Shown here in pieces: positions 2,406 to 35,344 of a stretch of DNA of 38,545 bases. Within the stretch, counting starts at the first letter, position 1. Each line of letters starts with the position of its first letter. Source of the stretch: Ignavibacteriae bacterium HGW-Ignavibacteriae-2 (GTDB taxonomy: Bacteria; Bacteroidota; Ignavibacteria; Ignavibacteriales; Melioribacteraceae). Made by a program: the position numbers and the translations under genes. Location: NCBI GenBank assembly GCA_002839805.1, contig PGYT01000039.1, forward strand, positions 16,441 to 54,985. The letters run 5' to 3'. Under the pieces are notes generated by a model that worked only from the letters and a program-made list of their open reading frames with translations, ran no database searches and was not told the DNA's origin.

Positions 2406-2409
2406 AAGT

Positions 2410-2418
2410 CCCCCCCCC
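2410..2418 (-). repeat. G9 homopolymer in the ribosome-binding region
   Basis: Nine consecutive C on the plus strand read as nine G on the coding strand, ending four bases before the ATG at 2405. The run takes the place of a Shine-Dalgarno sequence. Runs of this kind can change length by slippage, which would change ribosome binding or, if the upstream TTG is used, the reading frame. Confidence 0.6.
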
Positions 2419-2430
2419 AAAAAAATTTAT

Positions 2431-2829
2431 TTATTTCTCGATTGAATGTTTTTTGTTTACAAAGTTTGTTCTCCAAACAACCAGTAGAACAACAATCCAT
2501 ACAGTCGAACGTATTATCATCGCATTAATGCTATGACCCGCTACATCACCATTAGAAAGGAAGAGTAGTCCTACTATAAGGAATACGATAACGTGCGCTG
2601 CTGTAACAGCGGATGTTAATATCAGCCCCCTGCGGTAATTCAGCCAAAGGGTTATACCGACAATAAAACCAACGAATCCCATAACAACATTATAAATAAG
2701 CAATGGTCGCAACACGTAATAGTCCGGATGCGTTATCCCAAGGAGCACTTGCAGTCCTTCTACTAAAGTTAACATGCTAAAAGCAATAGCAATAAAAGCC
2801 GCTATTCTATTATAGATATTTTTTTTCAT
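2431..2829 (-). CDS. Small four-helix membrane protein, unknown function
   Basis: I chose the ATG at 2829 because an AAGGA ribosome site precedes it; the frame is open further upstream but without one. The 132 residues form about four hydrophobic helices (near residues 8-30, 43-62, 70-90 and 105-122) with short polar loops. I do not recognise the family. It follows the DUF3943 gene by 60 bases and ends 25 bases before the start of the small Spy-like gene, so it is probably part of one leftward transcript. Confidence 0.6.
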   Translation of the reverse strand: MKKNIYNRIAAFIAIAFSMLTLVEGLQVLLGITHPDYYVLRPLLIYNVVMGFVGFIVGITLWLNYRRGLILTSAVTAAHVIVFLIVGLLFLSNGDVAGHSINAMIIRSTVWIVVLLVVWRTNFVNKKHSIEK

Positions 2830-2889
2830 CACTGATTCCTTACAAAATGTTATCGTAATTATGTCTTTGTAAACGACCCAATTGGTCAA

Positions 2890-4320: not shown

Positions 4321-4392
4321 TTTTCCTCCATGATGTTTTATCATGAATATGCCTCTTGGTTAAATCCGTAAAACAATTATTGCTTTTTCCAA

Positions 4393-15686: not shown

Positions 15687-18593
15687 TTATTGTTGCTCTG
15701 TCGCTATTGATATGGTAGTTATTTCATTTTTAACATTTTGCTTTATGTATAACATTTTATTTTCAAACGAATAAAAATAATTATCGGAGGAATCCAGGAA
15801 CTCATTCCAACTCTTTGATTCATTTATAATTTTTCCTGAGCTTTTTACTTCTTTAACCGCCGGAGTTTTAATAATAAAAGATATATTTGTTTTAAAAGGA
15901 GGAATTTCTAAAATCACACCGCCATTTTCTGCTGAAACTTTTATTTTTTTCTCATTTTCCTCAACATAATCTTTATAATTATATTCAATTGTTTTATCAG
16001 GCATAACTATAAAAGTAAGATTGTTATAAGATTTCAAATCGTTTGTCATATCCGAGGCGAATAAAAATGTTTTATTCAAATTTACAGGAGTAATGCTTCC
16101 ATTCTTTATAAAAACCGGAAGTTTATCATAAGGGACATCCATGTTGTAAACTGTTTTTCCGGAATATTTTTTTAAAGACCACAGATCGAACCAGTCTCCC
16201 TCGGGGAGGTAAATTTCTTTTTTTGTACCTGGTTCAGTTACTGCACAAACCAAAAGATTTCTGCCCAATTTATAATCGGTTTCATATTTTACAACATTTG
16301 AGTCAAGAGGATATTCTGTTACCAAAGGGCGCATCAGAGGAAATCCTGTTTCAATTGTAAATTCACATTCCGAATATAAGTATGGTATTATATTGAAGCG
16401 CACGTTCGCATATTTTTTGTAAACATCTATACACGACGGATCATTGTACATCCGTGCGATATTCCATGGAGTTCTTTCAAGATTCGGATCACCCGAATAA
16501 GCCGAGTGGAATTGCATAACAGGAGAAAACGCTGCTTGCGCCACACTGCGATTATATAACTCCGGCGAGAGATTAGTTTCATCATGGTAACCGGCAATAT
16601 CATAGCCTATAAACGAAATACCAGAAATCGAAGAGTTTAAGCATGATCTTATAGCTTCCTTAAATGCGGGAAAAGAAGAACATTGATCCCCGTTCCATGC
16701 GAGCGGATGTTTTTGAGCTCCGAAAGTTCCCGCCCTATGAAACACCGCCGTTTCCTTATTTACCGATTTAATTAATTTGTAATATGCGTCAACGTAAAGA
16801 TTAGCATAAACATTTCTCACCTCTTCGCCGCTTCTTCCGTCTGAAAAAATTAAATCTCTTCCCCAAATAAATTCACCACCATCGCATTTAAAACCATCTA
16901 TCTCCATTTCTTCAACTAAATATTTTCTTTTTTTCATCCACCAATCGGAAGCTTCTTTACTTGTGAAATCAAGATTCAAACTATTGCCGAACCATGTTGG
17001 CGGAATTCTAAAGGGTGAGCCGTCCGGATTTTTTACGACGAAATTTTTATCTACAGCATACTTCTCATCATTATCTCTTTGTTCGTTTTCTACCGAACTT
17101 GATTTAAGAACCGGGATATTCCACAGCACCAATTTCATGTTATCATTATGAAGATTATTAATCATTTCAACCGGATCAGGCCATCTTCCGGTAAATTTGA
17201 AATCTTTTAACGAAAAAGCCTGCTCTCCTAATTTTGGTTCATAAATTGCATCATTAAAAATGTAAAAAGTTTCTTCATCGCTCCAGGCTTCAATAACTAC
17301 TACCGTATTCGGAATATCATATTTCTTTAACGAATCGATCTGAGCTTCAATTTCAATTTGTTTATCCCATTCGTTTGCTGAAATCCAGGGGCCCAAAGTC
17401 CAAGCAGGTATACGGTCGCTTTTGCCTGTCAAATTCGCGAAGCCGGATATTATATTTAATGGTTTTTCATCGGCGAATAAATAATATTGGAATTCTCCCT
17501 CATACTTCCTTCCGAAATTCGATATGATTTCGCATCTGTTGGATTTCTCTGTATCAAGATTGAAGCGTGAATAATAAGTTGAATTAAGAAAAAATCCGTA
17601 ATTTTTATTTGTGAAATAGAACGGTACAGGGATATAGGTGCGCAAACCTTGATCTTTCCACGTATTAACGACATAATTATCAATACCATTTCCTCTCTGA
17701 TTAATTGAGTTATATCTCTCACCGAATCCGAAAAACATTTCATCATCAGGAGTATAATAACTCTCACTTACTTTTAGTATGCCCGTTTTATTGTTTAGGA
17801 AGCTGATTGATGAATGTCCTGGATACAAAAATTGTTTAACTAATTCTTTGTTATTCTTTTTTGAAATTAATTTTAAGTGAAACGGATTATAATTTATTTC
17901 AAGGTTCATTCTTGAATTCGACAAGACAGCTTTACTCTCCGATTGCGTAAAAAAACATTTCTCCCCTGAGCCGGCATTTGTTTTTACGGAATTTGAAAAT
18001 AAAATTCTAAGATCGAGTGACAATTCAGAGTTAAATGAGATTTGAACGATCGGATTAACCGACTCGTTGGTCGATAAGCATGAAAGGATTAAGTTATTGT
18101 TAGAAAAGTGTGCAGATTTAACTTCGGTTAAATAATCCCATCCGTATATAATAAAATTATAACCGTTCGATTTAGTGCTTTCATTATCGTTAAAATTTAT
18201 ACGCAAACTGTATCCGACCGAATCGCCTTTTGAAAATTTGCCGATATCAGCCTTCCAGTAACTTTCGCTAGCGTTATTATATTGAAAATCGGCTCTAATA
18301 GTTTTTTCAACCAGCGAGTTTATAACAACATCAACAAAACATTCCTGTTTATTAAATATTGGAGAGGTTTTAAAATTTATAATAACGCTTTCATTTTCAA
18401 CAGGATCGCGCGGTTCCCTTTCACAATTATTAAGAGGAATTTCCAGTTCTCTGTCAGGATAAATGTTTTCATATCCTAAAGGACTATGATATATACTCCC
18501 TTGCGCATATAAAAAACTTATTGAACACAAGAAAACCGATAACGTTAATAAATAACTGCTTACTGTCACTGAAAAAGATAAGCGTTTGTTCAT
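15687..18593 (-). CDS. Secreted GH31 alpha-glycosidase
   Basis: This 968-residue protein has a signal peptide ending near LYAQ. An N-terminal beta-sandwich is followed by a GH31 (beta/alpha)8 barrel at about residues 370-720 and C-terminal beta domains. The expected catalytic nucleophile is Asp571 in GFKCDGGEF, and the acid/base is Asp636 in WNGDQ. These assignments come from the GH31 pattern. The family includes alpha-glucosidases and alpha-xylosidases; the KCDGGE form does not decide which. Beside GH97 in one operon, alpha-glucosidase action on imported oligosaccharides is likely. AGAGG precedes the ATG. Confidence 0.88.
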   Translation of the reverse strand: MNKRLSFSVTVSSYLLTLSVFLCSISFLYAQGSIYHSPLGYENIYPDRELEIPLNNCEREPRDPVENESVIINFKTSPIFNKQECFVDVVINSLVEKTIRADFQYNNASESYWKADIGKFSKGDSVGYSLRINFNDNESTKSNGYNFIIYGWDYLTEVKSAHFSNNNLILSCLSTNESVNPIVQISFNSELSLDLRILFSNSVKTNAGSGEKCFFTQSESKAVLSNSRMNLEINYNPFHLKLISKKNNKELVKQFLYPGHSSISFLNNKTGILKVSESYYTPDDEMFFGFGERYNSINQRGNGIDNYVVNTWKDQGLRTYIPVPFYFTNKNYGFFLNSTYYSRFNLDTEKSNRCEIISNFGRKYEGEFQYYLFADEKPLNIISGFANLTGKSDRIPAWTLGPWISANEWDKQIEIEAQIDSLKKYDIPNTVVVIEAWSDEETFYIFNDAIYEPKLGEQAFSLKDFKFTGRWPDPVEMINNLHNDNMKLVLWNIPVLKSSSVENEQRDNDEKYAVDKNFVVKNPDGSPFRIPPTWFGNSLNLDFTSKEASDWWMKKRKYLVEEMEIDGFKCDGGEFIWGRDLIFSDGRSGEEVRNVYANLYVDAYYKLIKSVNKETAVFHRAGTFGAQKHPLAWNGDQCSSFPAFKEAIRSCLNSSISGISFIGYDIAGYHDETNLSPELYNRSVAQAAFSPVMQFHSAYSGDPNLERTPWNIARMYNDPSCIDVYKKYANVRFNIIPYLYSECEFTIETGFPLMRPLVTEYPLDSNVVKYETDYKLGRNLLVCAVTEPGTKKEIYLPEGDWFDLWSLKKYSGKTVYNMDVPYDKLPVFIKNGSITPVNLNKTFLFASDMTNDLKSYNNLTFIVMPDKTIEYNYKDYVEENEKKIKVSAENGGVILEIPPFKTNISFIIKTPAVKEVKSSGKIINESKSWNEFLDSSDNYFYSFENKMLYIKQNVKNEITTISIATEQQ

Positions 18594-18631
18594 TTATAAA
18601 CCTCTGTAAAAATATGTTATTCGTTGCCGAA

Positions 18632-20617
18632 TCAATTTATTTTTTCAATCTTACACGCAAAGCCGCCGCCGGGGGCAAGGTGTATAGTATACTCCTGATT
18701 ATTAGATATCTTTTCTTCCGCTATGTTTATAGAATACGGATTATTTATGTAGTGTGCATCTTTGCCGTCTGAATAGGATTTCATTAAATAATTTCCTGGT
18801 TCTAAAAAATCGAATTTCACTTTAACTTCTCTTTCATTCTCATCCGATACAGCACCCACATACCACGCATTATCTTTTTCGCGGGCTATTACAACATAAT
18901 CGCCAATGACTGCCTTAAGAGCAATTGTTGTGTCCCAGTCGGTAGGAACGCATTTTATAAATTCAAACGCCGGATTATCTTTGTAATTCTCTATTAAGTC
19001 CGCCGCCATTTGTAATGGACTATAAAGTACAACATAAAGCGCAAGTTGATTGGCTAATGTAGATTTAACGAACTCGTCTATTTTGTATTGATCGTACTTC
19101 AAATCAAATATCCCTGGAGTATAATCCATAGGTCCTGATAGACCACGCGTAAAAGGCAATATTGTTACATGCTCGGGCGGATTCCCGATGCTCCATGCAT
19201 TCCATTCGGTACCACGCATTCCTTCAGCTGTCATAAGATTTGGATAAGTTCTGCACATTCCTGTAGCTTTAATTGGTTCATGAACATCAAGCATAAGATT
19301 ATATTCGTAAGCTTTTTCCATAACTAGATTATAATGGTCTATCATCATTTGCCCATAATGATATCCGTAGGGTCTAATAGGTCCGGCATAACCCGTTTTT
19401 ACAATATTAACGCCGTTGTCTTTATAAAATTTAAAAGCGGCATCCAATTGTTTTTCATAATTAATATAATCGCCGCCAGTTTCATGATGGCCGATTAACG
19501 AGATGTTTTTCGATTTTGCATACTTTGATATCTCGGTAATATCAAAATCCGGATAACATTCTGTGTAAGAAAAAGCCCCGTTGCCTTTGCCCCACATCTC
19601 CCATCCTTTATTCCAACCCTCGGCTAAAACCGCATTAAAATTGTTCTCCGAGGCAAAATCTATATATCGTTTTACATTTTCGGTTGTCGCGCCGTGTTTC
19701 GGACCCATTACCCACGATTCCTTATCCAGATGCATAGCCCACCAAACACCCACATATTTACCGGGTTTTATCCAATCAAAATTTTTATCTGCCGGCGGAG
19801 GATTAAGATTTAGAATAATATTTGATGATATCAGGTCTTCTGCGCTAGGAGTAATAATTATAACACGCCAGGGAGTATCGAACGGCGCTGTCTGTTTTAC
19901 TCTTATTCCATCTGGCCACGGAACCAGAACCGATTGAAAGGAATTGGCAGGATATCTATTTCTTTCAAGCGTCATACTTGAATAATTTTTAAGCTGTGCT
20001 TCGTGAATCGTTATACAAGTTCCCCTTTCTGTCTGAAGCGTAATAGGTGTGTGAGCTCCAAGTATTTTATCAATAGCAGTATTGCGATACGTATATTCTT
20101 CGCTGTCGTAGTCATTAGGAATCCACCAAGCATTAAAATTATCCGCGAAATTAAAAAATGTTAACTCGTCTGTAATTTCAAAATAATTGTTCTCTATCTG
20201 CTTATCAAAATGGTATCGGAAAGCAACGCCGTCGTTATAGGCTCTTACAATAAATTGGATTTTTCTGAAGGGAGTGTATTTTTCTTCAAGATTAAGAATT
20301 AGCTCATTATACTCGTTCGATATCTTTTTATTTTGACCCCACACCGGTTTCCATACTTCACTGAATTTATTTGTACTATAATCGACACAAGTGAAATTTG
20401 AAAGTTCCGGCTGATTCTTAAACCTGAATCCCAATGGAGATGGAGTAACAATAGATTCATCGCCGTAAGTTAATTCATAATGGGCTACCCCATCGTGCAG
20501 AGAAAACGTATAAATAATTCTTCCGTCCGGCGAAACAACTTTATGATTATCAGCTGCAGTGCACACTGAAACAAAAAACAAAATTAAAACAAATACATTC
20601 GTGAAGTTAAATTTCAT
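18632..20617 (-). CDS. GH97 alpha-glucosidase, SusB-like inverting type
   Basis: This 661-residue protein has a signal peptide ending near CTAA. It has the GH97 layout: N-terminal beta-sandwich, (beta/alpha)8 barrel, and a C-terminal beta domain. Glu379 (HHETGG), Glu447 (DVHEPIK) and Glu471 (RGTEWNAW) have almost exactly the spacing of the known catalytic and calcium-binding glutamates of Bacteroides SusB. The strand where retaining GH97 enzymes carry an Asp nucleophile reads VKTGYAG, with Gly. This points to an inverting, calcium-dependent alpha-glucosidase acting in the periplasm on the ends of alpha-glucans. AAGGGCAAGG precedes the ATG. Confidence 0.9.
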   Translation of the reverse strand: MKFNFTNVFVLILFFVSVCTAADNHKVVSPDGRIIYTFSLHDGVAHYELTYGDESIVTPSPLGFRFKNQPELSNFTCVDYSTNKFSEVWKPVWGQNKKISNEYNELILNLEEKYTPFRKIQFIVRAYNDGVAFRYHFDKQIENNYFEITDELTFFNFADNFNAWWIPNDYDSEEYTYRNTAIDKILGAHTPITLQTERGTCITIHEAQLKNYSSMTLERNRYPANSFQSVLVPWPDGIRVKQTAPFDTPWRVIIITPSAEDLISSNIILNLNPPPADKNFDWIKPGKYVGVWWAMHLDKESWVMGPKHGATTENVKRYIDFASENNFNAVLAEGWNKGWEMWGKGNGAFSYTECYPDFDITEISKYAKSKNISLIGHHETGGDYINYEKQLDAAFKFYKDNGVNIVKTGYAGPIRPYGYHYGQMMIDHYNLVMEKAYEYNLMLDVHEPIKATGMCRTYPNLMTAEGMRGTEWNAWSIGNPPEHVTILPFTRGLSGPMDYTPGIFDLKYDQYKIDEFVKSTLANQLALYVVLYSPLQMAADLIENYKDNPAFEFIKCVPTDWDTTIALKAVIGDYVVIAREKDNAWYVGAVSDENEREVKVKFDFLEPGNYLMKSYSDGKDAHYINNPYSINIAEEKISNNQEYTIHLAPGGGFACKIEKIN

Positions 20618-20633
20618 CCTTGCCCTTATATAT

Positions 20634-23315
20634 TTAATTAACCGGAATTATTCTTAGATGATCTATTAAAGCTTCATTTTTTTCTTCATTCATATTGCCG
20701 TTTATTGGTAAATATTTTAATTCGAACCGAGATAGACCTTTTTTCAAATAACATTTAATTGAATTTGAATATCCCCAGTTGTTCCAAATATTTTCACCCC
20801 TTTGCGGTAGAACAATAGTCGATTCCAATTTATCATTTATATATAATGTTCTTATCCCGCATGCATTATACGTATTTATGGGTCCATTGCCATTGGCGTA
20901 CTTAAAATCAATCCAGTAGTTACCGTCCCTCTCAATTTCCTTTGTGAATAGTATAGCGGCATTATCAGATATTGTTGTTCTTATATATCCCTGACCGGTA
21001 TAACCTTCGATCTTATTTTCAATTAAACCGCTCGAGGCTTTCACTTCACAATTGTTTTCAATTAAGGTTGTTACTGGCTCAGACATAAACGATTGATACC
21101 CATCTTTATCAATCGCTACAACCACATATTCATCCGCATATTTTCCAGGTATAACCGGAAAAGATTCTTCTTTTATCTCCGCAATCATCATACCATTTTG
21201 AAATATCTTATAATATTCGGCACCTTCTATTTTTTGCCAGTTTAAACTACCAGTTTTTAGATTAACAATTGGAGTAGAAGGTGCAAAATGGTTTTCAGCG
21301 ACATTCATTTCGCCCGTAACGCTTATATTATCCAAAAATATTTCAACGGAGTGTTTGCCGGAAATATTTTTCGGGATAGAAACTGTTTGTACTTTTTCAC
21401 CGTCGATAATTGCTTTAATTATCCTACATCCAAAACCATGAACAGTTATATCAATTGACGCGTTTCTATATTTCATATTTGTTAACTTATTTTCACCTCC
21501 GAATTTTTCGGGCACAAATGGAGCAATATCCAAACTATTTTCTGTTAAAGTAATGCCGAACATCACCCTATAAATTGTTGCAAGATTTCCCGCAATACTC
21601 CATAACATCCGATCGGAATTTATTTCAGTACCGTCGAAATGTCCGTTATCGGCGACCATGTTTTCTTTATTGGTAAGAAATAAAGACGCGGCGCGATAAA
21701 TGGCATCCATTCCGAAATTAACAGCGGTTTCGTTTTTTGCTTTTGAAGCGGCCCATGTCCAGTAGCTAACAACAAACGGCCAAATCGCGTTATTATGATA
21801 TGGCGGGATGTTAGTTATCTGGGGATATATACAAGTGGGTCCGTATTCAACAACAGGCATATTGTCAAATATACTTTTACCTTTCTTTTCATCAGCAATA
21901 TTAAATAAAACCGAGAGAGCTTCACCGAGAGTTTCAGACTTGGGAGAAACATAGCTGTAATTTCTTCCATAAATAAATTGCGCGTAATAACCTTTATCTT
22001 CCATCCATAATTTTTTGTTAATTGCCGCTTTCAAATTTTCGGCCAGTTCTTTATAATCACCCGTATTATAACCGAGTTCATTTTCAATCAAGTTTAATAT
22101 TTCCAATGTACGGTAATGCAAAGCATTTGTGCCGAGGGAGCATGATTTATAAATATCTTTTGGATCCATCCACGTCGGATATGTTTGTTCACGCCAATCC
22201 AGAAAAGAAGATTCGCCAAGTACCAAATTTGTGCTTTTATCAAAGGCATTTATAATATCCGCATCCACGGACTTTTTTATTATTCCGTAAATATGTTTAA
22301 GCCATTGGGTATCGCCTGTTACCAGATATATTTCCCACGCGGCAACAGACCAAACAACTCTATCGGTAGAAATAGGCCACGAACCCCCCGTGCCAGTATC
22401 CTGAATAATTCTTCCATTACTCACTTTTTTAAGTAAACTTTGTTTTGCAATATCCGGCTGAATTAAAGCGAGAGAAAGAAAAATGCTATAGCTAATGTCC
22501 CTTGTCCATACACCGTGCCATTTTGCTCCAGCCATAAAAGTTGAGTCAGTACGAATGTCCAACAAAAACTCCTCGAGCGCCATATTATAAAGTGCTTGTT
22601 GAAGAATATTTTGCGATTCATATTTAGGATATTCTGAAATATCATTCTTTAACTCCCAAACGGCATTTCCTTCTGAGTCAATTGAACGATAGTCGTTAGT
22701 TTTAAAAACTATTTTACATTCGTAAATTCCATCGCCGTCGGGATCTGTCATTTTATATTGAGGATTCTTTTGTATTTCTCCGAAATTCCAAGACAACGGC
22801 TCTGTATCTCCGGCTATAAACAATCCTTCGAAGTTCTCTTTAGTAATTCTGCTGCCATTATAAGTTTCAAAGTATCCTTTTTCATCAAAGGATTTAAGGA
22901 CATCACTAAAATTAATTCTGAATAAAACCGATACTTCCGAATTTTGGGGAAGGAATTCGTTTTTTATTTTCGAAATTTCTTTTTCACCGCTAAATTCTTT
23001 CCCGAATTCGAAAAGGGGTGTAACGTAATTTTTATTCTCAGGTTTTATAAGTATAAAATGGTCTTCTGTCGGTTTGCGTTCGTTATCCAAACCATTTATA
23101 CTGAATTTAAATTGAATAACTGCACTAGTACTTCTCATAAATCCGTCTCTGTAATTCGACTTTATCTTAACGGGTGATTCAGCGACAGATTTATAATTTT
23201 TTTGAATTACCATGTACCTGCCAACGTTAAATGTTTGCTGAGCCAAGAATTCCACATTCAAAATTTCACACAACAGTAGAATTAAAATAAAATTTCCTGT
23301 TATTTTTCTTTTCAT
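20634..23315 (-). CDS. Secreted six-hairpin glycosidase with FN3 and CBM35-like domains
   Basis: This 893-residue protein has a signal peptide. Its parts in order are a beta-sandwich (about residues 100-220), an (alpha/alpha)6 barrel (about 235-610), a beta domain (610-685), an FN3-like domain (690-760) and a C-terminal CBM6/35-like domain (765-893; GYTGQGYI ... YWIDFKYANG). The barrel shows WHGVWTRDISYS and DWREQTYPTWMDP, as in GH63/GH133-like six-hairpin glycosidases and glycogen-debranching relatives. The exact family and substrate cannot be fixed by eye. In this operon an alpha-glucan substrate is the best guess. No clear ribosome site precedes the ATG. Confidence 0.75.
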   Translation of the reverse strand: MKRKITGNFILILLLCEILNVEFLAQQTFNVGRYMVIQKNYKSVAESPVKIKSNYRDGFMRSTSAVIQFKFSINGLDNERKPTEDHFILIKPENKNYVTPLFEFGKEFSGEKEISKIKNEFLPQNSEVSVLFRINFSDVLKSFDEKGYFETYNGSRITKENFEGLFIAGDTEPLSWNFGEIQKNPQYKMTDPDGDGIYECKIVFKTNDYRSIDSEGNAVWELKNDISEYPKYESQNILQQALYNMALEEFLLDIRTDSTFMAGAKWHGVWTRDISYSIFLSLALIQPDIAKQSLLKKVSNGRIIQDTGTGGSWPISTDRVVWSVAAWEIYLVTGDTQWLKHIYGIIKKSVDADIINAFDKSTNLVLGESSFLDWREQTYPTWMDPKDIYKSCSLGTNALHYRTLEILNLIENELGYNTGDYKELAENLKAAINKKLWMEDKGYYAQFIYGRNYSYVSPKSETLGEALSVLFNIADEKKGKSIFDNMPVVEYGPTCIYPQITNIPPYHNNAIWPFVVSYWTWAASKAKNETAVNFGMDAIYRAASLFLTNKENMVADNGHFDGTEINSDRMLWSIAGNLATIYRVMFGITLTENSLDIAPFVPEKFGGENKLTNMKYRNASIDITVHGFGCRIIKAIIDGEKVQTVSIPKNISGKHSVEIFLDNISVTGEMNVAENHFAPSTPIVNLKTGSLNWQKIEGAEYYKIFQNGMMIAEIKEESFPVIPGKYADEYVVVAIDKDGYQSFMSEPVTTLIENNCEVKASSGLIENKIEGYTGQGYIRTTISDNAAILFTKEIERDGNYWIDFKYANGNGPINTYNACGIRTLYINDKLESTIVLPQRGENIWNNWGYSNSIKCYLKKGLSRFELKYLPINGNMNEEKNEALIDHLRIIPVN

Positions 23316-23404: not shown

Positions 23405-24973
23405 TTATTTTACTAGCATCATTTTTCTTGTAATTAAACTGGATCCATTTGATAAACTGTAGAAATAAATTCCGCTTGATAAAGAAGCCGCGTCAAATTT
23501 CACTTCATAGGTCCCAGCGGATTGTTGGGTATTTACCAATTCCATTACTTTTTGACCAATTGCATTGTATATACTAATATTTACATCAGCTTGTTTATTG
23601 ATTTCATATTTAATAGTAGTTGAAGGATTAAACGGATTTGGATAATTTTGTTCCAATTGGAATTTTGAGGGAATTTCATCGTCAAGTTTTCTTACAGAAA
23701 CTGCCCCGCTTAGGCTTGGCCAAATATCCAATACTTCAAAAACATCACTTCTCTCAAGGATTTCGCAAACTAAGTCTTCACCTGTACCGCCAAATCCATC
23801 CATATAATAAGTTGAGCTGATTTGTTCACAGCCGGGGTAATAAACACCGTATTTATAAGATGTTCTGCCGCCAACACTACCCTTCGGGAAAGTAACAATA
23901 CTCGACCAGATATTATCTCCAGCAATTTTATCTCCTTTTTTACCGCTATCGTTAAGAACGGGAATTCCCGGAGTTATTGTATCCTGCTCTGTCCAAACTC
24001 CGCTCCAACTGCCAAGAATTGGATGGCTTCCCCTTACCGTCATAAATTGAATTAAGTTGAGTGGAATAGCTGAACTGTCATATCTATTTGTAGCATTATG
24101 ATTCATATCTACCTGGAAAAGAATTTTTGAATCATTTACTAATGTAAAGTTCGGAACGATATCGGGTTTGAGAGGTCCTATTTCTACAGTTGTCCCGTTT
24201 GGTTGAAATGCAGTAAAACGGCCTATACCATTTTCCCATCCATTGTTAGACCATCTGTTCTCGGGCGTGGCATGGAATTTCCATCTTAAAGAGTCTCCGA
24301 CAACATATGCCGGATCTAATTCAAGAACCAAAGTAGTTTCAAAAATAACTCCAGGTAATAAAGGATTTTGCTGCATTTTTCTTTCACCGCTAACTACAAT
24401 AGCCATAGCCTCCCAAGTTAATCCCTCAATAATAATTTGGTCGATTGATGGATCAAAGTAACCTTCACCTGTTCCTACTATATCAGAAACATCAACCATA
24501 AAATGCCATGTATTCTGTGGACCCAAACCCGTAACAACATATTGAAAATTTGGCACTACAGGCTCTAGATTTACAACGGCATTATTTTCTTTAACGTAGT
24601 ATGGTCTTCCATCATAACCCGCGAAGCCGCCTTCCCAGCCGCCGCCTTTAATTTTATCGCTCGGCCATATAAATAATTTCCATCGCAGAGAATCACCGAC
24701 AACCGCTGTGCCTGCATTGATAATAATTGTAGTAGAATAAATATTTGGATTAGAAACAGAAGGGGCAAGAATTCTGGAGCTTGTAGGATCCAAAGTAACA
24801 CCAAAACTATCCCAGGTCAATCCTTCGACCTTTATTGAATCCACCATCGGATTAAAGCCCCCTGCGATAAGATTTGACATATCAATATTAAACGTAACAG
24901 TGTTTGTTATTTGAGCGAACAATGAGCCCGCAAAAAACATAAAAATTAGAACTGCATTGTAACTTTTTTTCAT
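23405..24973 (-). CDS. T9SS-sorted surface protein with duplicated glucan-binding-like domains
   Basis: This 522-residue protein has a signal peptide ending near LFAQ. Two tandem domains (about residues 22-145 and 146-282) are clear duplicates: each has an EGLTW segment, then VVGDSLRWK, then a GWE(G/N)G turn. A third beta domain (about 283-420) carries VRGSHPILGSWSG, similar in style to CBM20/SusE-type starch-binding folds. The C-terminal 85 residues are a T9SS type A sorting tail (FQLEQNYPNPFNPSTTIKYE ... MMLVK), so it is exported by the type IX system and attached to the cell surface. It may hold glucans, as SusE/SusF do. AGGAG precedes the ATG. Confidence 0.8.
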   Translation of the reverse strand: MKKSYNAVLIFMFFAGSLFAQITNTVTFNIDMSNLIAGGFNPMVDSIKVEGLTWDSFGVTLDPTSSRILAPSVSNPNIYSTTIIINAGTAVVGDSLRWKLFIWPSDKIKGGGWEGGFAGYDGRPYYVKENNAVVNLEPVVPNFQYVVTGLGPQNTWHFMVDVSDIVGTGEGYFDPSIDQIIIEGLTWEAMAIVVSGERKMQQNPLLPGVIFETTLVLELDPAYVVGDSLRWKFHATPENRWSNNGWENGIGRFTAFQPNGTTVEIGPLKPDIVPNFTLVNDSKILFQVDMNHNATNRYDSSAIPLNLIQFMTVRGSHPILGSWSGVWTEQDTITPGIPVLNDSGKKGDKIAGDNIWSSIVTFPKGSVGGRTSYKYGVYYPGCEQISSTYYMDGFGGTGEDLVCEILERSDVFEVLDIWPSLSGAVSVRKLDDEIPSKFQLEQNYPNPFNPSTTIKYEINKQADVNISIYNAIGQKVMELVNTQQSAGTYEVKFDAASLSSGIYFYSLSNGSSLITRKMMLVK

Positions 24974-25004: not shown

Positions 25005-26006
25005 TTAAAATCCTATTGTGATTGAATAACGATTCAAATTACTCCAGTTGCCGAAATCAAGAAACGCATATTCAACCGATAATTTTAATCCCGATAATTC
25101 GTATTTTAGCCCGGCGCCCAACGTAAATCCCTCTTCGGCATTTTCTTTTAGAAATGAATTTTTCCCGGCACGAGCGAAGAAAACATCTTTCCACTGCAGT
25201 TCTCCTCCCAAGTTTATATATGTATTTTCATTACTTGGAATTACTGCATCGGCGGCAGTTGTTAAATAAAGGTCATCCCACAAACCATACTTCCACGAAA
25301 GCCCAACAGCGAAAATCAATGGAAGCTCCCATTTATCCGTTGATATGTTAGATGTTATAGTGGAGTTGTTGTAATTATAGGATTCATCAATATCGACAGC
25401 GCGGAGCAAATCTTTTCCGTCGAGTTCCATTCCGGTTCCGAAATTCGAAATAGACATACCCAGGTTTAATCCTTCAACTTGTGTTTTGTATAACAAGCCG
25501 ATATCCGCAGCAAAGGAACTTGCGCTTTCGTTCCATATTTTTTGCTGTATATATTTTACCGATCCTCCAATTGAAAAACGATCGGTGAGATTTCTACTGT
25601 AAGAAAGACTTATTGCGATATCCGAAGCATCCCACTTTTCACCGGTTCCTTCCGGCAAACTAATTGTGGTAACCTCTTCTTCGCCATAATCTAAACTTGT
25701 TACGGATAAAACAATGTAATCGTCACTGCTTAATTTAACCCCGAGTCCTATCCAACTGTATTTTGTGTCCACCAGCCATTCGGAATAATTTGTAAGAAAT
25801 TGATTTTCTGAAATTCTTGATAAACTTCCCGGGTTATAATATGCGGCGGTAATATCATCGGCAACAGATGTAAAGGCCGCTCCCATTCCAAGGGCTTTAG
25901 TTCCCACCGGAATAGTTAAAAATTCGGCGGCAGTGGTTCCTACTTTATTCTGTGCTGATGTTATTGAAACAAATAGAAATAAAAGACTGCATATAAACTT
26001 TTTCAT
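25005..26006 (-). CDS. PorV/PorQ-family outer-membrane protein
   Basis: This 333-residue protein has a signal peptide and then the family opening GTTAAEFLTIPVGTKALGMGAAFTSVADDITAAYYNPGSL. It ends in an outer-membrane Phe (SITIGF). PorV proteins are FadL-like barrels that act as shuttles in type IX secretion, carrying substrates from the translocon to the attachment complex. This copy lies within the glucan operon, between two T9SS-type surface proteins, so it may be a dedicated partner for them rather than the housekeeping PorV. GGAG precedes the ATG. Confidence 0.82.
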   Translation of the reverse strand: MKKFICSLLFLFVSITSAQNKVGTTAAEFLTIPVGTKALGMGAAFTSVADDITAAYYNPGSLSRISENQFLTNYSEWLVDTKYSWIGLGVKLSSDDYIVLSVTSLDYGEEEVTTISLPEGTGEKWDASDIAISLSYSRNLTDRFSIGGSVKYIQQKIWNESASSFAADIGLLYKTQVEGLNLGMSISNFGTGMELDGKDLLRAVDIDESYNYNNSTITSNISTDKWELPLIFAVGLSWKYGLWDDLYLTTAADAVIPSNENTYINLGGELQWKDVFFARAGKNSFLKENAEEGFTLGAGLKYELSGLKLSVEYAFLDFGNWSNLNRYSITIGF

Positions 26007-26024
26007 AAATCTCCACTCACGAAA

Positions 26025-29000
26025 TTATTTTATAAGAGCAATTTTACCGGTTTTTTTTGCACCGCTGGCTGGGTCTTCAACGATATAGAAATAAATTCCG
26101 TACGCGACATCAAGTCCTTCCGCCGAGGCCAGATCCCATGTTGCGGAGCCGTCATCGATGTTTCCGTTATGATAAATTTCTTTAACAAGGTTGCCGCGGC
26201 TTGTATAAATAGATATTTTACTATTAGCTGGTAAATGAATAAACTTAACTGCTCTGTCTCCACGACCCCTAACGTCACCGGGCAATGGATGTTCAAAAAT
26301 ATTAGATACCACATAAGGATTAGGAACGACTTTTATTCTATTCATTTGGGACACTGCGGAGTTTTCATCAGCGTAAGATTGTTTGGTAACGAACGAGAAA
26401 ACATCTTTTGATGTGAAAGGTCGGTTTATAGAAATAAAAAGCGTGTCCCCAGCCGTTGGAATTCTTGTAGAATCGCCCGCAAATTCAATAGTCCATGTAA
26501 AGGAAGTAGAATCCGCGGTACCCATCATTATACGATCACCTTTGTTAAGAAGTGTATCGAGAGTTACATAAGCGAAAGGCAATTTTACTGGTTCGGATGG
26601 ATTGGAAATATTAAATATTTCCATATTAGTTTTTTTGGCCGGCAAAGGAAGATTTAAAAGTTTAGCCGTAGATTCTTTGTCGTACTTATCGCCAAAAACA
26701 ACAGCATATTCTTCTGTTTCCCTAATACCTTTTGGATAACCCGAAAAGTTAAATGGTTGAACTGTAAATCGCAGATTTTTACCAATATTTCTATTCCAGC
26801 GACTATTTTCAATATTCGCTTTTACGCTATCCGCACTTTGGTAGCGGGTATCAAAATGTAAGGTTACTCCTTCAAATACATCGTTGTTGCTTTGCTTGAA
26901 ATACAAATTCTTTTTATAAATTTCTCTTCCTGTTGTAATATTTTTCACCTTGTAGGCATAGGCAATTGGAATACCTGCCTGGACAGAGTCAATAAAACTA
27001 ACCTGGTATTCGGAAGTTTTAACGTTTACAGGATCGACTATTGAAAAATATGGTGTGGCTTTGGAGTGTCCAGAAACACGCGTTAATTTTTCTCCTTCTT
27101 TCGGCGGGACATATCCTGCAACCGGAGCGTTAGGAATTACAATCGCACAGTTTATATTCGGTGAAAAATTGCCGTTTATATCTAATGAAATAATATGAGA
27201 ATTTTCAGCGGGGAAAATATTCTTCTCGGCTAAACCTCTATCATAAGCGCAAATCGCGTAAAAATATGTGACTCCGTTTTTAACGTCTTCATCTATATAG
27301 GTGTTTTGTATGCCTGTATCATCTCCTAAATAAAATGGAACGCCATTTCTTAGCTCCATCAATTCCTGACTAGGTACAAATGTTCCTCTAATGTCATTTT
27401 TAAGATCAAACTGTTTTAGCGGCTTGTACCTTTTCGGATTTCCGTCTTTATCGGTTATAGTCATAACATCATTAAAATTCGGATCGGTAGATTTGTAAAT
27501 AAAGTACCCTTCAAAATCGTTTTCTCTTGAAACGGGATCTATTGAGTTTTCAGCTACTTTATCCCAATAAAGAATAACTTTCCCATCACCTGGTGTGGCT
27601 GTTAGAGTAGGCATATTAGGAGGTTTCGGGAAATTGTAATTCGCGTTATAAATTGTTTGAGCGATTTTTTTTGTTTTAATTGTAGCCTTATAATCTTCAC
27701 CAAAACTGAACGCAAGTGAAAATCGTTCTATCGTATTGGGAAGCAATGGGAAGTAACCGGAGCCATAAATAAAATCACCATCTTCACCTCTTGTAGCGAC
27801 GTTATTCTGGACTGAAGTCGGCACATCAAATGTTCCCGGCTTAATTCTTCGCCACATATCGTTCTCATTTCCCAGCCTTATATCATTCGACGGTACGAAA
27901 TAATGGAAGCTTGTTAAACCAATTTGATCTGATTCGTCGACATCCGTTTTATCAAAATTCGGTTCTCCCCAGGTTGGTGTTCCATCATTCTCGCCTTCAT
28001 CATAAGTTTCTTTCTTGCCGTCTTTTCCAGTGTCATCAAGTAAGTTTCCTTTTTCATCAAATAACATTACGCCAGTGTTAACATCCCGGCTCCAATCATA
28101 ATCGTTGTCAATTCCATCATCCCTTCCCTCATCAATCATATCGCTTAATTTGTTAAGTCCGGCTAAATAGTTTGTGTGTTTCAGAGCGTTCAGAGTATCT
28201 ATCAGCACTCTCTTAGTAGTTGTCTCTCGTTTAAATTGTCGATAATGCAATTGGTAATTTTCATCTATTAAACCATCCAGATCATTGTCATATCCATCAT
28301 AAGCGTTTTTGTTGAGCATTTCTTTTTTATCTAAATTGCCTTCAACAAGTATTGTTGAATCTGGAACAAGACGGAATGTTTTGCCTAATGATTCCACAGT
28401 TACCGGATAGTTAGGCATAATAAACTCGGAACGATTATAGTTGTTTTTATCAATCAGAATTAATTTTTGACCGGCACGCAAAATCTGTTCATTAAAATCA
28501 TCCGCTGTGAAATAAGGATCGTTTCCTTTGCTGTCGCCATCGTTATCGATGCCGTCATATTTATTTCCCGGCGACTCCAGAAAAGAATAAGCAACGTAAC
28601 CGACTTCGTTTCTAGGTCCCTGCCACAAAGGATTTGCGATTGCGTCTACATAATGATTATAATCCCATGTGTAAGTGATATTTTCCCTTATATTAAAAAA
28701 TGAAGCATCATCCAGGTATTCATTTCCCGGTAATCCAACGTAAGTACCAACGAGAGCACCGAAAACCGCTTGTTGATAGACTGTAGTTCCAATATTTGTT
28801 ATCTCATAAAGCCAAAATATCACGTCCTGGGCTAAAAAATCGGACCACTGAAGACCCCTAACAGATACTCGAATCGCTTGACCTTTTCGTGATGGATCGG
28901 TTGAATCTGGCAGGAATTTATAATTAGTGTAAAATTTTTCATCGCAGTGATCATCCATCATAAAATAACTTTCCTGATCAGCATTCAGCTGACCACGACC

Positions 29001-29495
29001 AAAATATCCGTTCCACTCTGCTCTTCCATTTTCGTCGATCCAAGTTGGCTGGTCAGGCCAAAACGAAGGCCATGTTGAAGGTTTATGACTCATAGCGATT
29101 CGTTCATTGCAGAAACCTGGAATCGGCTCGAAAGTCCACGGCCGCGAGTTGCCAGGCGCCATATCCCCATCACCATGACCCGTAACATTTGTTGTGATTA
29201 CGGAATACAGAGTATCAATTTTACCATCCTTGTTATGATCTTTTACAGGTAAGCTAACTCCAACTAAGGGAGAAACATCGCCAACATATTTATTAGTAAC
29301 ATATTTCCAACCGCCGGCGGGGCCCTCTGTGCCGGGCTGAGCAATTACTCCCCAATTACTGAAGACTGTCATAACTCGGTTCCCGTCATGAACATTGCTC
29401 TTTTGTTCGGTTGCGCTGCCCTTACCTATTTGTTGGGCTTTTATACCTAGAGCTGCAGTTATTATTATAAAAAAAACTAATTTGCTTTTTTTCAT
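26025..29495 (-). CDS. Large T9SS-type surface protein with DxDND loops, possible SusD substitute
   Basis: This 1156-residue protein has a signal peptide ending near IKAQ. Three Asp-rich loops of the D-G-x-D-N-D type lie near residues 312, 399 and 457 and look like calcium-binding loops. An FN3-like domain follows at about residues 670-790. The end has the NPY...KISIYTSRGNLVKEI and GIYFYIVED pattern of a divergent T9SS tail. The gene lies 19 bases after the TonB-dependent receptor gene, where Bacteroides loci have susD, but it has no SusD-like TPR helices. I infer that it is the surface binding partner of the receptor. Direct function is not shown by sequence. Confidence 0.65.
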   Translation of the reverse strand: MKKSKLVFFIIITAALGIKAQQIGKGSATEQKSNVHDGNRVMTVFSNWGVIAQPGTEGPAGGWKYVTNKYVGDVSPLVGVSLPVKDHNKDGKIDTLYSVITTNVTGHGDGDMAPGNSRPWTFEPIPGFCNERIAMSHKPSTWPSFWPDQPTWIDENGRAEWNGYFGRGQLNADQESYFMMDDHCDEKFYTNYKFLPDSTDPSRKGQAIRVSVRGLQWSDFLAQDVIFWLYEITNIGTTVYQQAVFGALVGTYVGLPGNEYLDDASFFNIRENITYTWDYNHYVDAIANPLWQGPRNEVGYVAYSFLESPGNKYDGIDNDGDSKGNDPYFTADDFNEQILRAGQKLILIDKNNYNRSEFIMPNYPVTVESLGKTFRLVPDSTILVEGNLDKKEMLNKNAYDGYDNDLDGLIDENYQLHYRQFKRETTTKRVLIDTLNALKHTNYLAGLNKLSDMIDEGRDDGIDNDYDWSRDVNTGVMLFDEKGNLLDDTGKDGKKETYDEGENDGTPTWGEPNFDKTDVDESDQIGLTSFHYFVPSNDIRLGNENDMWRRIKPGTFDVPTSVQNNVATRGEDGDFIYGSGYFPLLPNTIERFSLAFSFGEDYKATIKTKKIAQTIYNANYNFPKPPNMPTLTATPGDGKVILYWDKVAENSIDPVSRENDFEGYFIYKSTDPNFNDVMTITDKDGNPKRYKPLKQFDLKNDIRGTFVPSQELMELRNGVPFYLGDDTGIQNTYIDEDVKNGVTYFYAICAYDRGLAEKNIFPAENSHIISLDINGNFSPNINCAIVIPNAPVAGYVPPKEGEKLTRVSGHSKATPYFSIVDPVNVKTSEYQVSFIDSVQAGIPIAYAYKVKNITTGREIYKKNLYFKQSNNDVFEGVTLHFDTRYQSADSVKANIENSRWNRNIGKNLRFTVQPFNFSGYPKGIRETEEYAVVFGDKYDKESTAKLLNLPLPAKKTNMEIFNISNPSEPVKLPFAYVTLDTLLNKGDRIMMGTADSTSFTWTIEFAGDSTRIPTAGDTLFISINRPFTSKDVFSFVTKQSYADENSAVSQMNRIKVVPNPYVVSNIFEHPLPGDVRGRGDRAVKFIHLPANSKISIYTSRGNLVKEIYHNGNIDDGSATWDLASAEGLDVAYGIYFYIVEDPASGAKKTGKIALIK

Positions 29496-29514
29496 TATAT
29501 GATCCGCTTGTTTT

Positions 29515-32310
29515 CTAAAAGAAGAGTGAAATGCCTAATTCCACCCTGCGAGGTTCGGAATAATAGGTCGGGTTACGGAAATATTCGTCTATTGAGTTTA
29601 TTATTTCAGGACTATTATTTCTATGCCTTATATATTCTTCGATTGTAAAATCCGCAGTGCCGCTGTCGTTGTAAACGTTAAGCTGATTTTCCGTGTCAAA
29701 AAGGTTATAAACTCTGGCGAATACCGAAAGTTTTAATGTGTTAAGCAGCATAAGGTCATAATACATTTTCAAATCAACACTTAATGTATAAGGCTTAACT
29801 TCACTGTTGCTTAATAACTTTGATAGCTGCATCGATTGGTTGGGTGTGTACGGAAATCCGCTGCCATATTGAAATAAAACACTTCCGCCCCATTGCGCCG
29901 GATCGGTATAATTTAAGGAAACATTTAACGTGTGGGTTTGATCCCAGTCCAAAGGAATGAGTTGGACTTCGGGTTGAATGTTTGAAGCGATCAAATTTCT
30001 TACTCTATTTGGATCCGATGCGTTTCCTTTAGCGGATTGCAATGTGTAGTCGAGTCTGGCGGACCATGATCCTCCAAAACTTTTATTAACAGAAACAATC
30101 ATTCCTTTTACAAAACCAAAATCACTATTAACATATTGACTGTATGTGGAGGAATTGCCATAAAAATAAATTTCATCGGCCCTTGTGCCGGTTAAATTCC
30201 TTATATCTCTAAAATATGCGGTCACATCAATTACAACATCTTCAGCCAGAGCCTGCTGCAATCCGATTTCTCCGCTAATTGTTTGTTCTGGTTTTAGATC
30301 TGGGTTGCCTGCTATTCCAAGGTTACCGGCACCGGTACCGAATTTATATTCCGGATTCGCGTATAGCAGAGAATATTTAGGGATTTGGAAAAAATGACCG
30401 TAAGAAAAATGAACTACTCCGGTTGCTGTTATAGGAAATGCAAAACCTATTCGCGGACTGACGGCAATTTTATCGGATGCCTCTTTATACCAATAAGTTC
30501 TACGTTCGTCAATAGATTTAAGTATATTTTCGGGTTTCCTTGGACGGTATATATCCGGATCATTCGGGTCGTTGAGTATTACTCCATCAGGGGAAAAATA
30601 ATCTAGCCTTACTCCAATGTTTATAATCATATCATCAAATTCAATTTTGTCCTGAACATAAGCCGAGAATTCCATCGGAATTGTAGTTATCCTATTGATA
30701 TTCAAGTTTTCATTTTCGTTATCTACATCAGGCACTCTCATTCTTACATATGGGTCGTTGGAGATTTCAGGATTTTCCATTCCATCTTCTCCCAAATCAT
30801 AAACTCCATTATCATTCCAGTCTTTCCATTTCAACAATCTCATTTCACTATTGTATAAGCGGTTTCTGTTTAATTCAAAACCAACTTTTAGCTGGTGATT
30901 TTTATGAACTTGAGATGTTAGATCAAACTTTAAAGTTAGACTTGAGGTTTCCCTTTGACTTTGGTCGTCGCGGGTGCCGCCAGTTAAAAAACTCGGGGAT
31001 TCTGAAGGTGATTGTTGAAGCAGCAAATCATTTGTCCACCTGGGATCGTTAACATCTTTATAAACATAATGCTCATAATTTTTGAAATAATAAGAAAGGT
31101 TTACTCTATAAAAAGTATTAGTTCCTAAAGTATGTGTAAGACTGAGAATGTTTGTATTCGCCCACTGAAATCGATTTAGATCTCCATCCGGATTATATGA
31201 ATAAGCATGGGTGTATTCATTAAAATTTTCTTTATTGAACATAGATGTGAGGTTAAGTCTTACTTTGGAAATTGATACTAGCGAGAGTCTTCCGTGCAAA
31301 CTAACCCTTTCGCTAAAATTCATCGGTTCAAATTCATCATCCCCGCTTTTTTGTATCGAATATCTTTCGGCTCCAATTCCGTCGGGATTAATCATTTTGG
31401 TTATATCCCATGGATTATATACGCGTTTTCCATAATAATAACCCTCATCATATATATATCTGGCCGAGGTATAGAAATACAAATTATCTTTTATTATCGG
31501 TCCACTCAGACTTCCCTCTACATTTTGTATTGAAAAGGGATTTATTTTATCGATGTGCCTGAAAACATTTGTATTGTTACTTAAATGATCTCCGACGTAC
31601 GTTGTAATATTGCCGGTTAATTTATTGTTACCCTCTTTAGTTGCAAGATTCACAACTCCCGAAAGAGCTTTACCGTATTCAGCGTTAAATGCTCCGCTAA
31701 TAAACTGTAACTCCTGAATAGCGCTAGTGTTAATGTCAACTACCATTGAACTATCATAAAGATCGGTTACTGAAACCCCGTCTATTGTATAGAGGACTTC
31801 ACCGCGTCTGCCGCCCCTTACGCTTTCTCCGACAATTCCCGCCTGTAATTGCAGAACATCTTTAAATTCAGTTACAGGAAGAGCGGCCATATCGCTGCTG
31901 TTCATTATCGCTGTGGTTGAGGTCAGATCCTTAGTAACAATATCTTTTTGGGCAATAACAACAATTTCTTTTCCCAACTCTATATCCTTTGAAGCTAACT
32001 CAAAATTTAGAATTGTCGTTAAATCGCTTGATACGTTAACTTCCTGATAAATATAATTTTGGTATCCAATTGAGGAAGCCTTTATATTGTACTTGCCGGG
32101 CGGTACATTCATAATTATATAGTTACCATCAATATCAGCGGCGGCTCCGATATTTAATCCCTGAATTAAAATATTAACAAACGGCAACCTCTCGCCCGAA
32201 TTGCTGTCTTTCACAAAGCCTTTAATTTTTCCCGTTTGACCGTATGATGGGAATACCGAATAAAGAACCAATAATATCAGAAAAGGAAATGATTTTTTAA
32301 TAAGGCGCAT
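29515..32310 (-). CDS. TonB-dependent receptor with carboxypeptidase-regulatory-like domain (SusC-like)
   Basis: This 931-residue protein has a signal peptide and a CarboxypepD_reg-like domain at about residues 25-110 (GKIKGFVKDSNSGERLPFVNI). A plug domain follows at about 125-230 (LQAGIV ... YTIDGVSV ... GAFNAEYGKALSGVVNLATKEG), then a long beta-barrel ending in Phe (ELGISLFF). It would import a substrate across the outer membrane using TonB energy. In this operon the substrate is probably an alpha-glucan oligosaccharide. It is shorter than most Bacteroides SusC proteins. AGGAG precedes the ATG. Confidence 0.88.
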   Translation of the reverse strand: MRLIKKSFPFLILLVLYSVFPSYGQTGKIKGFVKDSNSGERLPFVNILIQGLNIGAAADIDGNYIIMNVPPGKYNIKASSIGYQNYIYQEVNVSSDLTTILNFELASKDIELGKEIVVIAQKDIVTKDLTSTTAIMNSSDMAALPVTEFKDVLQLQAGIVGESVRGGRRGEVLYTIDGVSVTDLYDSSMVVDINTSAIQELQFISGAFNAEYGKALSGVVNLATKEGNNKLTGNITTYVGDHLSNNTNVFRHIDKINPFSIQNVEGSLSGPIIKDNLYFYTSARYIYDEGYYYGKRVYNPWDITKMINPDGIGAERYSIQKSGDDEFEPMNFSERVSLHGRLSLVSISKVRLNLTSMFNKENFNEYTHAYSYNPDGDLNRFQWANTNILSLTHTLGTNTFYRVNLSYYFKNYEHYVYKDVNDPRWTNDLLLQQSPSESPSFLTGGTRDDQSQRETSSLTLKFDLTSQVHKNHQLKVGFELNRNRLYNSEMRLLKWKDWNDNGVYDLGEDGMENPEISNDPYVRMRVPDVDNENENLNINRITTIPMEFSAYVQDKIEFDDMIINIGVRLDYFSPDGVILNDPNDPDIYRPRKPENILKSIDERRTYWYKEASDKIAVSPRIGFAFPITATGVVHFSYGHFFQIPKYSLLYANPEYKFGTGAGNLGIAGNPDLKPEQTISGEIGLQQALAEDVVIDVTAYFRDIRNLTGTRADEIYFYGNSSTYSQYVNSDFGFVKGMIVSVNKSFGGSWSARLDYTLQSAKGNASDPNRVRNLIASNIQPEVQLIPLDWDQTHTLNVSLNYTDPAQWGGSVLFQYGSGFPYTPNQSMQLSKLLSNSEVKPYTLSVDLKMYYDLMLLNTLKLSVFARVYNLFDTENQLNVYNDSGTADFTIEEYIRHRNNSPEIINSIDEYFRNPTYYSEPRRVELGISLFF

Positions 32311-35332: not shown

Positions 35333-35344
35333 AAGCGGCACTAT

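Follow-up and report, generated by a model that had tools for sequence, protein, structure and literature searches.

A 38,545-nucleotide stretch of the genome of Ignavibacteriae bacterium HGW-Ignavibacteriae-2 (contig PGYT01000039.1 of assembly GCA_002839805.1, positions 16,441 to 54,985; hereafter the window) carries three adjacent genes on its minus strand, which encode a TonB-dependent receptor of 931 amino acids (29515..32310), a large predicted surface protein of 1156 amino acids (LP; 26025..29495, with its first codon at 29495), and a PorV/PorQ-family outer-membrane barrel of 333 amino acids that is the proposed anchor of LP (25005..26006). The gaps between them are 19 nt (receptor-LP) and 18 nt (LP-barrel). 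The original prediction, which located all three open reading frames (ORFs) exactly, regarded them as a set of receptor, lid, and shuttle that replaces the SusC/SusD pair, the textbook glycan import route of Bacteroidota and their kin. The present study finds that receptor, LP, and barrel are a fixed gene unit, and we favor, with moderate confidence, the reading that the trio is an outer-membrane uptake unit directed to glycans, in which LP would be anchored on the cell surface via its own barrel and hand glycan to the receptor.

No Pfam domain over the cut-off was found in LP, and its profile gave no match at E ≤ 0.1 among the sequences of solved structures. An AlphaFold2 model of LP, built on 77 sequences, has a mean pLDDT of 85.9. 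In this model the N-domain (residues ~25-620; 27636..29423, with approximate boundaries) bears aspartate-rich loop insertions starting at residues 86, 314, 400, and 460, which bears out the DxDND loops noted earlier. Its best structure match was dextran dextrinase (9ju0; VIA Z 19.6, 264 residues, 3.1 Å), followed by glucodextranase (1ug9; Z 19.5), two CgsiGP chains, which we take to be cyclic-glucan synthase (Z 18-19), and GH94-type enzymes and phosphorylases (Z 15.8-17.2), while FN3 matches scored far lower, at about 10. Altogether, eight matches of the GH15/GH94 type (glycoside hydrolase families 15 and 94; Z 15.8-19.6, 238-264 residues, 2.9-3.8 Å) assign the modeled N-domain to a fold that we take to be the beta-supersandwich (galactose-mutarotase-like). 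It is followed by an FN3 domain (residues ~625-789; 27129..27623; structure matches with Z ~10), which had been predicted before and appears in the model though without a Pfam FN3 match, then by further beta-structure, and finally by a C-terminal domain (CTD) of the type IX secretion system (T9SS; residues ~1045-1156; 26028..26363). Mean conservation is highest in residues 481-530, then in the FN3 domain, the CTD, and residues 25-310, and residues 790-1044 are the most variable region after the signal peptide. The four aspartate-rich loops are partly conserved, and many acidic and aromatic residues are nearly invariant.

These nearly invariant residues, together with matches of the structure to the exo-beta-D-arabinanase ExoMA2 (8ic6; Z 16.9) and to polysaccharide lyases (Z 12.6-13.1), could also be taken to mean that LP is itself an enzyme, whose epimerase- or lyase-like supersandwich would feed its product to the receptor. 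In enzymes of the GH15/GH94 type, however, the supersandwich domain stands before a helical catalytic barrel and is itself non-catalytic, and it is with these enzymes that LP matches best. Moreover, the model has little helix and hence no sign of the (alpha/alpha)6 catalytic barrel, and we regard an enzymatic LP as improbable.

The C terminus of LP matched the C-terminal part of the NCBIfam PorZ model (E 4.2e-7), in agreement with the earlier assignment of LP as a T9SS-type protein, and its structure matched PorZ (5m11; Z 11.8) and PorU (6za2; Z 9.8). A cleavable CTD such as that of RgpB was not among the structure matches listed, an absence that carries no evidential weight. Among the nine LPs of the genome, curated models at E ≤ 0.01 recognized the CTD as PorZ in four and as PorU in two; the type A CTD model (TIGR04183) likewise detected two of the nine, with a best E of 0.0041, and the window LP was not listed for it at that threshold. 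The CTD of LP is thus nearer to those of PorZ and PorU than to type A. By a pattern test, none of the 77 LPs has a lipobox-like motif within its first 70 residues, and 73 of them have a hydrophobic N terminus, 71 a VVPNPY-like CTD motif, and 76 lysine or arginine as the last residue. Because of the missing lipobox, the hydrophobic N terminus, and the CTD motif, LP is predicted to be exported by the T9SS rather than to be periplasmic, a location that would have counted against the original prediction. LP thus combines a predicted Sec signal with a T9SS CTD, and the genome also encodes the T9SS components SprA (977 bits), PorU (968 bits), and, beside PorU, a canonical PorV (254.8 bits, cut-off 250).

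The third gene belongs to the PorV family, as had been proposed (185 bits with NF033709, cut-off 90), and the only sequence match of its product in the PDB at E ≤ 0.1 was PorV (6h3i). It scored 106.6 bits with the PorQ model and 75.2 bits with the PorV model, below the equivalog cut-offs of 220 and 250, respectively. These cut-offs were also missed by the eight further trio-type barrels scanned (the L021 and L025 barrels were left aside), all of which, like that of the window, score higher with PorQ than with PorV, with L026 nearly tied; for the L023 barrel, the PorV2 model scores above PorQ. Since the genome holds its own canonical PorV next to PorU, the trio barrels are additional paralogs, and 17 places in the genome exceed the NF033709 cut-off. 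PorV is the anchor of PorU, and PorQ that of PorZ (PMC5562754); the CTDs of PorU and PorZ are described as not being removed (PMC11285876). By this analogy, each trio barrel is probably a dedicated anchor of its LP, as PorQ is for PorZ, and the role of shuttle proposed at first fits it less well.

The receptor has a signal peptide, a CarboxypepD_reg domain over the Pfam cut-off, a segment between this domain and the plug that we presume to be TonB-box-like, and a plug (PF07715) scoring 23.4 bits, just under the cut-off of 23.9. Its model (mean pLDDT 87.2), with a predicted plug and barrel, is that of a TonB-dependent outer-membrane transporter. The closest structures were PirA (Z 36.0), BtuB (35.9), and Bacteroides BtuB3 from the BtuB-BtuG complex (35.2), and PirA/BtuB-type transporters gave Z 31.5-36.0 among the 50 matches listed, so that by its model the receptor looks like an ordinary importer. 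SusC chains were absent from these 50, which carries no evidential weight. With the curated SusC/RagA model (TIGR04056), the receptor scored 53.5 bits against a cut-off of 368.25, and none of the 46 matches in the genome exceeds that cut-off. The receptor is therefore no SusC, and the unit cannot be read as one in which only the lid has been exchanged.

The assembly (4.16 Mb, 99.9% complete) encodes nine full members of the LP family, the other eight of which are 31-37% identical to the LP of the window. Eight of the nine stand in trios, although in the C52 trio the contig ends within the receptor gene, and one further trio contains a remote LP (L026, 193 bits). For loci of other genomes, profiles built from the window's genome only (seven rows for the receptor) were applied to stop-to-stop frames, and a trio was counted when receptor, LP, and barrel lay on one strand within 6 kb. 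One sample comprised the best 80 of at least 567 LP-encoding stretches in named records, 51 of which were testable; the other 29 were short of flank, and 13 of these still showed the full trio. The second comprised 20 loci hand-picked among the matches listed from 14 families of the phylum, 19 of them testable (one lacked flank). The full trio was present in 51 of 51 and 19 of 19 testable loci, with a weakest receptor score of 821 bits and a weakest barrel score of 278 bits. The 51 loci represent 50 assemblies, since L086 and L111 belong to the same one, and include three LP pairs that are 91-92% identical; no pair of LPs between the two samples reaches 85%. Random association of the three families, which had been named as a refutation, is ruled out by these counts, which lie far beyond chance, and the three genes hold as the set that was proposed.

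The median gaps within trios are 12 and 11 nt, values that rest, like the downstream proteins discussed below, on simple gene calling, in which antisense ORFs hid genes in GC-rich loci. Nearly all loci have the order receptor-LP-barrel; in five of the named loci, one of the second sample, and the C35 trio of the genome itself it is receptor-barrel-LP. Four named loci contain an additional LP or receptor within range. The closest named relative of the LP is from the metagenome-assembled genome (MAG) BRH_c32 (79%), followed by MAGs of Melioribacteraceae and Ignavibacteriales. According to their titles, which are unchecked MAG labels, the 80 records represent Ignavibacteriota, Neomarinimicrobiota, KSB1, Calditrichota, WOR-3/Stahlbacteria, Cloacimonetes, Gemmatimonadetes, Fermentibacteria, and others. 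Viral contigs, scanned with one pattern, yielded no confirmed relative. In two further places of the genome, L028:3403-9602 and L030:6868-13228, the gene between receptor and barrel encodes a shorter CTD protein (765 and 718 amino acids, respectively) with an N-terminal part unlike that of LP, and the middle slot of the trio may be exchangeable. At L027:2135-5971, a receptor directly adjoins a PorV/PorQ barrel, and the nearest weak LP match, a 693-amino acid CTD protein (162 bits), lies ~4 kb upstream.

The three proteins also share their inheritance. Among the eight trios of the genome, pairwise distances correlate between receptor and LP (r 0.60, p 0.0025), LP and barrel (r 0.49, p 0.011), and receptor and barrel (r 0.42, p 0.094), and because all of these paralogous trios reside in one genome, the correlation is not due to species descent. 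When the third protein is controlled, receptor-LP remains at r 0.50 (p 0.012), with LP-barrel at 0.33 (p 0.08) and receptor-barrel at 0.18 (p 0.31). Adding the three divergent sets left out of the eight (L026, L028, and L030) to give 11 trios brings LP-barrel with the receptor controlled to r 0.43 (p 0.006). Among 45 outside trios, with the third protein controlled in turn, the highest value is once more that of receptor-LP (0.69), and receptor-barrel reaches 0.47 (p 0.0002). Receptor, LP, and barrel agree on their nearest outside trio in the window (L038) and in the C35 trio (L091); in the other nine sets they do not, and the nearest outside relatives of these sets are distant. Two genes of one trio share their nearest trio in 25-28 of the 45 outside cases. 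The distance data thus support a receptor-LP partnership better than an LP-barrel partnership.

This result bears on another explanation, in which LP and barrel form a surface-display module, either an adhesin or a glycan-capturing device comparable to the additional glycan-binding surface proteins that accompany SusCD, whereas the receptor would be an importer in its own right, encoded in the same operon but with no lid contact. The parallel of the LP-barrel pairing with PorZ-PorQ and PorU-PorV (PMC5562754) speaks for such a module, as do one LP of the genome without an adjacent receptor (L022) and the receptor-barrel pair at L027 without a full-length LP beside it. But none of the 70 testable loci lacks the receptor, and the receptor-LP correlation is the strongest in each of the three sets whether or not the third protein is controlled, which makes an independent display module rather unlikely.

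The fixed neighborhood and the joint diversification of receptor and LP would also be expected if the receptor worked outwards, helping to export or assemble LP instead of importing a nutrient. The TonB-dependent Oar receptor of Myxococcus, which acts in PopC export, offers an analogy. LP, however, has a T9SS CTD in a genome with SprA, PorU, and PorV, and the receptor most resembles importers in its model and stands in a context of a sugar importer and carbohydrate-active enzymes (CAZymes); an outward role is highly improbable.

As for SusD, the original prediction had stated that none lies in the window, and none was detected by Pfam among the 19 window proteins scanned, LP included. Nor did the whole genome contain any match to PF07980 and PF14322, for which a Bacteroides control was positive (PF12741 and PF12771 were not part of the genome-wide search); by these models there is no SusD elsewhere that could pair with the receptor. 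LP is also distinct from the SusD type of lid, as all 77 LPs lack the lipobox-like motif of a lipoprotein. In the order to which the window belongs, LP occurs in 27 of 27 genomes and SusD in 4; in the class, LP occurs in 87 of 149 genomes, SusD in 37, and both in 25. LP presence was called at E ≤ 1e-60 in the survey behind the order counts and at E ≤ 1e-30 in that behind the class counts, and LP matches per genome are lower bounds because few candidates per genome were scored. Among 296 genomes of the phylum, 57 have both, 51 LP only, 101 SusD only, and 87 neither, so that the presence of LP is independent of that of SusD (odds ratio 0.96, p 0.90), and a general replacement of SusD by LP is rejected at this scale. 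The proposed replacement of SusC/SusD therefore fits this order but not the phylum: the trios take the place of SusCD in the lineage of the window and occur together with it elsewhere.

The surroundings of the trios point to carbohydrates. CAZymes or carbohydrate-binding modules (CBMs) are found near six of the eight trios of the genome, a raw count without a background rate: those of the window, C35 (GH26, CBM9), C28 (GH3, GH16, CBM9, and an SSF symporter), C5 (CBM20), C58 (GH2 and a glycoamylase), and C25. The C25 trio opens a 13-gene same-strand run (C25:2978-26700; L022, L023), in which receptor, LP, and barrel are followed by a PpiC-type isomerase, a solute-binding protein, two ABC permeases, two GH130 mannooligosaccharide phosphorylases, a 428-amino acid protein, a glycoside-hydrolase-like protein with weak GH94/MGH1 matches under the cut-offs (L022:8693-11290), a second LP, and a GH2. 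Because an outer-membrane unit leads here into an inner-membrane sugar importer and phosphorylases, the run fits mannooligosaccharide import, in which its second LP may have an accessory part as a surface protein that binds glycan. In the named loci, 78 downstream proteins include 33 with a T9SS type A tail, 14 with CBM20, eight with a PpiC-type domain, four alpha-amylases, and four GH94 proteins, again as raw counts without background rates.

In the window, the trio adjoins a T9SS type A surface protein of 522 amino acids (23405..24973, minus strand; TIGR04183/PF18962), in which no CBM was found, and three glycoside hydrolases assigned by Pfam follow on the same strand (15687..23315), namely, an 893-amino acid rhamnosidase/debranching-enzyme-like protein, a GH97, and a GH31. 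Proteins at the position of the 522-amino acid protein in relatives, however, have CBM20 or X25 in five of seven scanned, three of these five under the cut-off. CBM20 and X25 are starch-binding domains, and their presence in these counterparts, with CBM20 in the downstream proteins, makes an alpha-glucan the likeliest ligand of the window trio; other trios would probably serve other glycans.

The preferred reading, an uptake unit directed to glycans, can be formulated as follows. LP would be exported via Sec and the T9SS, as its secretory N terminus, its CTD, and the T9SS genes of the genome suggest; its CTD of the PorZ/PorU type would probably remain uncleaved and bound to the neighboring PorV/PorQ-family barrel, which would anchor LP on the cell surface. 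There the supersandwich domain might bind an oligosaccharide, in the window probably of alpha-glucan, and present it to the neighboring receptor, possibly by a lid-like opening, and the receptor would import it with TonB energy. Several observations weigh against this scheme. Sugar binding by LP is unproven because the supersandwich also occurs in catalytic proteins, and the PorZ and PorU models match only four and two of the nine LPs of the genome. The ninth of these (C25:5445-8699), downstream of the C25 trio, has no adjacent receptor or barrel, and the C62 and C52 trios have no CAZyme among the four neighbors scanned for each. SusD is also present in 57 of the 108 LP-positive genomes of the phylum. 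Finally, the LP-barrel correlation with the receptor controlled is weak in the 45 outside trios (0.13, p 0.08) and significant only in the 11-trio set, neither in the eight trios of the genome nor in those outside; because it partly fails while receptor-barrel is significant outside, the distances do not single out a contact between LP and barrel.

Comparison with known systems places the trio among several partial relatives. SusC/SusD and the outer-membrane utilisomes resemble it in combining a TonB receptor with a large surface glycan partner near glycoside hydrolases and surface binding proteins (PMC7618045). They differ in that the receptor of the trio is not SusC by the curated model and LP, built of supersandwich, FN3, and T9SS CTD, is neither SusD nor a lipoprotein, and in the PorV/PorQ-family gene that comes third in 70 of 70 testable loci. 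The BtuB-BtuG system for vitamin B12 also joins a non-SusC receptor to a non-SusD surface partner acting as a lid (PMC10404256), and the receptor model has some of its nearest solved relatives in the BtuB receptors of that system (Z 32.6-35.2). BtuG is a lipoprotein, the abstract of that report mentions neither T9SS export nor a PorV/PorQ barrel, and another class of ligand is expected for the trio. For the receptor-LP half of the trio, BtuB-BtuG is a precedent for a lid other than SusD on a receptor other than SusC (PMC10404256).

For the LP-barrel half, the nearest mechanism by analogy is the T9SS attachment complex. In PorZ-PorQ and PorU-PorV, a CTD-bearing surface protein sits on a PorV/PorQ-family barrel (PMC5562754, PMC11285876), but neither has a receptor partner, the trio barrels miss both equivalog cut-offs, and the N-domain of LP is different. 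Proteins with a type B CTD are likewise described as secreted and anchored by a cognate outer-membrane barrel, PorP/SprF, which is of a different family and associated with a different CTD type and no receptor (PMC9143113). In the Bacteroidota BAM complex, BamG, a barrel of the FadL family, docks the large surface protein BamH over another barrel; BamH, however, is a lipoprotein, and the BAM complex inserts outer-membrane proteins (PMC12611786).

No such trio was described in the open PubMed Central literature as judged from the best-ranked titles and abstract openings, a scope that lies apart from subscription papers and preprints. We know of no receptor-plus-surface-partner uptake system with a third, T9SS-type component, and we file the trio as a variation on such systems with that addition. 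We also put forward, tentatively, that it might constitute a third general class among the outer-membrane importers of nutrients, one that uses a dedicated PorV/PorQ-family barrel to clamp a supersandwich protein exported by the T9SS over a TonB receptor. Such a three-part importer would take its place next to pairs of the SusCD type and TonB receptors that act alone; it would link export by the T9SS to the uptake of nutrients, and would have multiplied for many ligands in lineages without SusC/SusD and spread over several phyla of the FCB group. The genome of the window has glycan-degrading loci but, by the curated models run, neither SusC nor SusD, and the trio, present eightfold and once heading a mannan locus with an inner-membrane sugar importer, is a candidate for the missing outer-membrane step. 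Scattered PorV/PorQ paralogs would gain a testable role as dedicated anchors of surface proteins, and the trio predicts gene partners usable in annotation.

Some neighboring genes deserve mention. PpiC/SurA-type prolyl isomerases often lie beside trios, as at L018:8312-9742, L020:15663-17333, and L022:18098-19630, a weak match of this type under the cut-off was found at window positions 13831-15684, and they are possibly chaperones for the barrels. An Omp85-superfamily protein near a DUF3943 protein is encoded at positions 673-4344 of the window. Upstream of the receptor lies a gene with a TTG start for a 440-amino acid GDSL/SGNH-like protein (32401-33723; below the Pfam cut-offs). Farther upstream on the same strand (33887-38118), genes encode a sigma-54 response regulator, a histidine-kinase-type ATPase protein, and a solute-binding protein, which could serve in ligand sensing and control of the locus.

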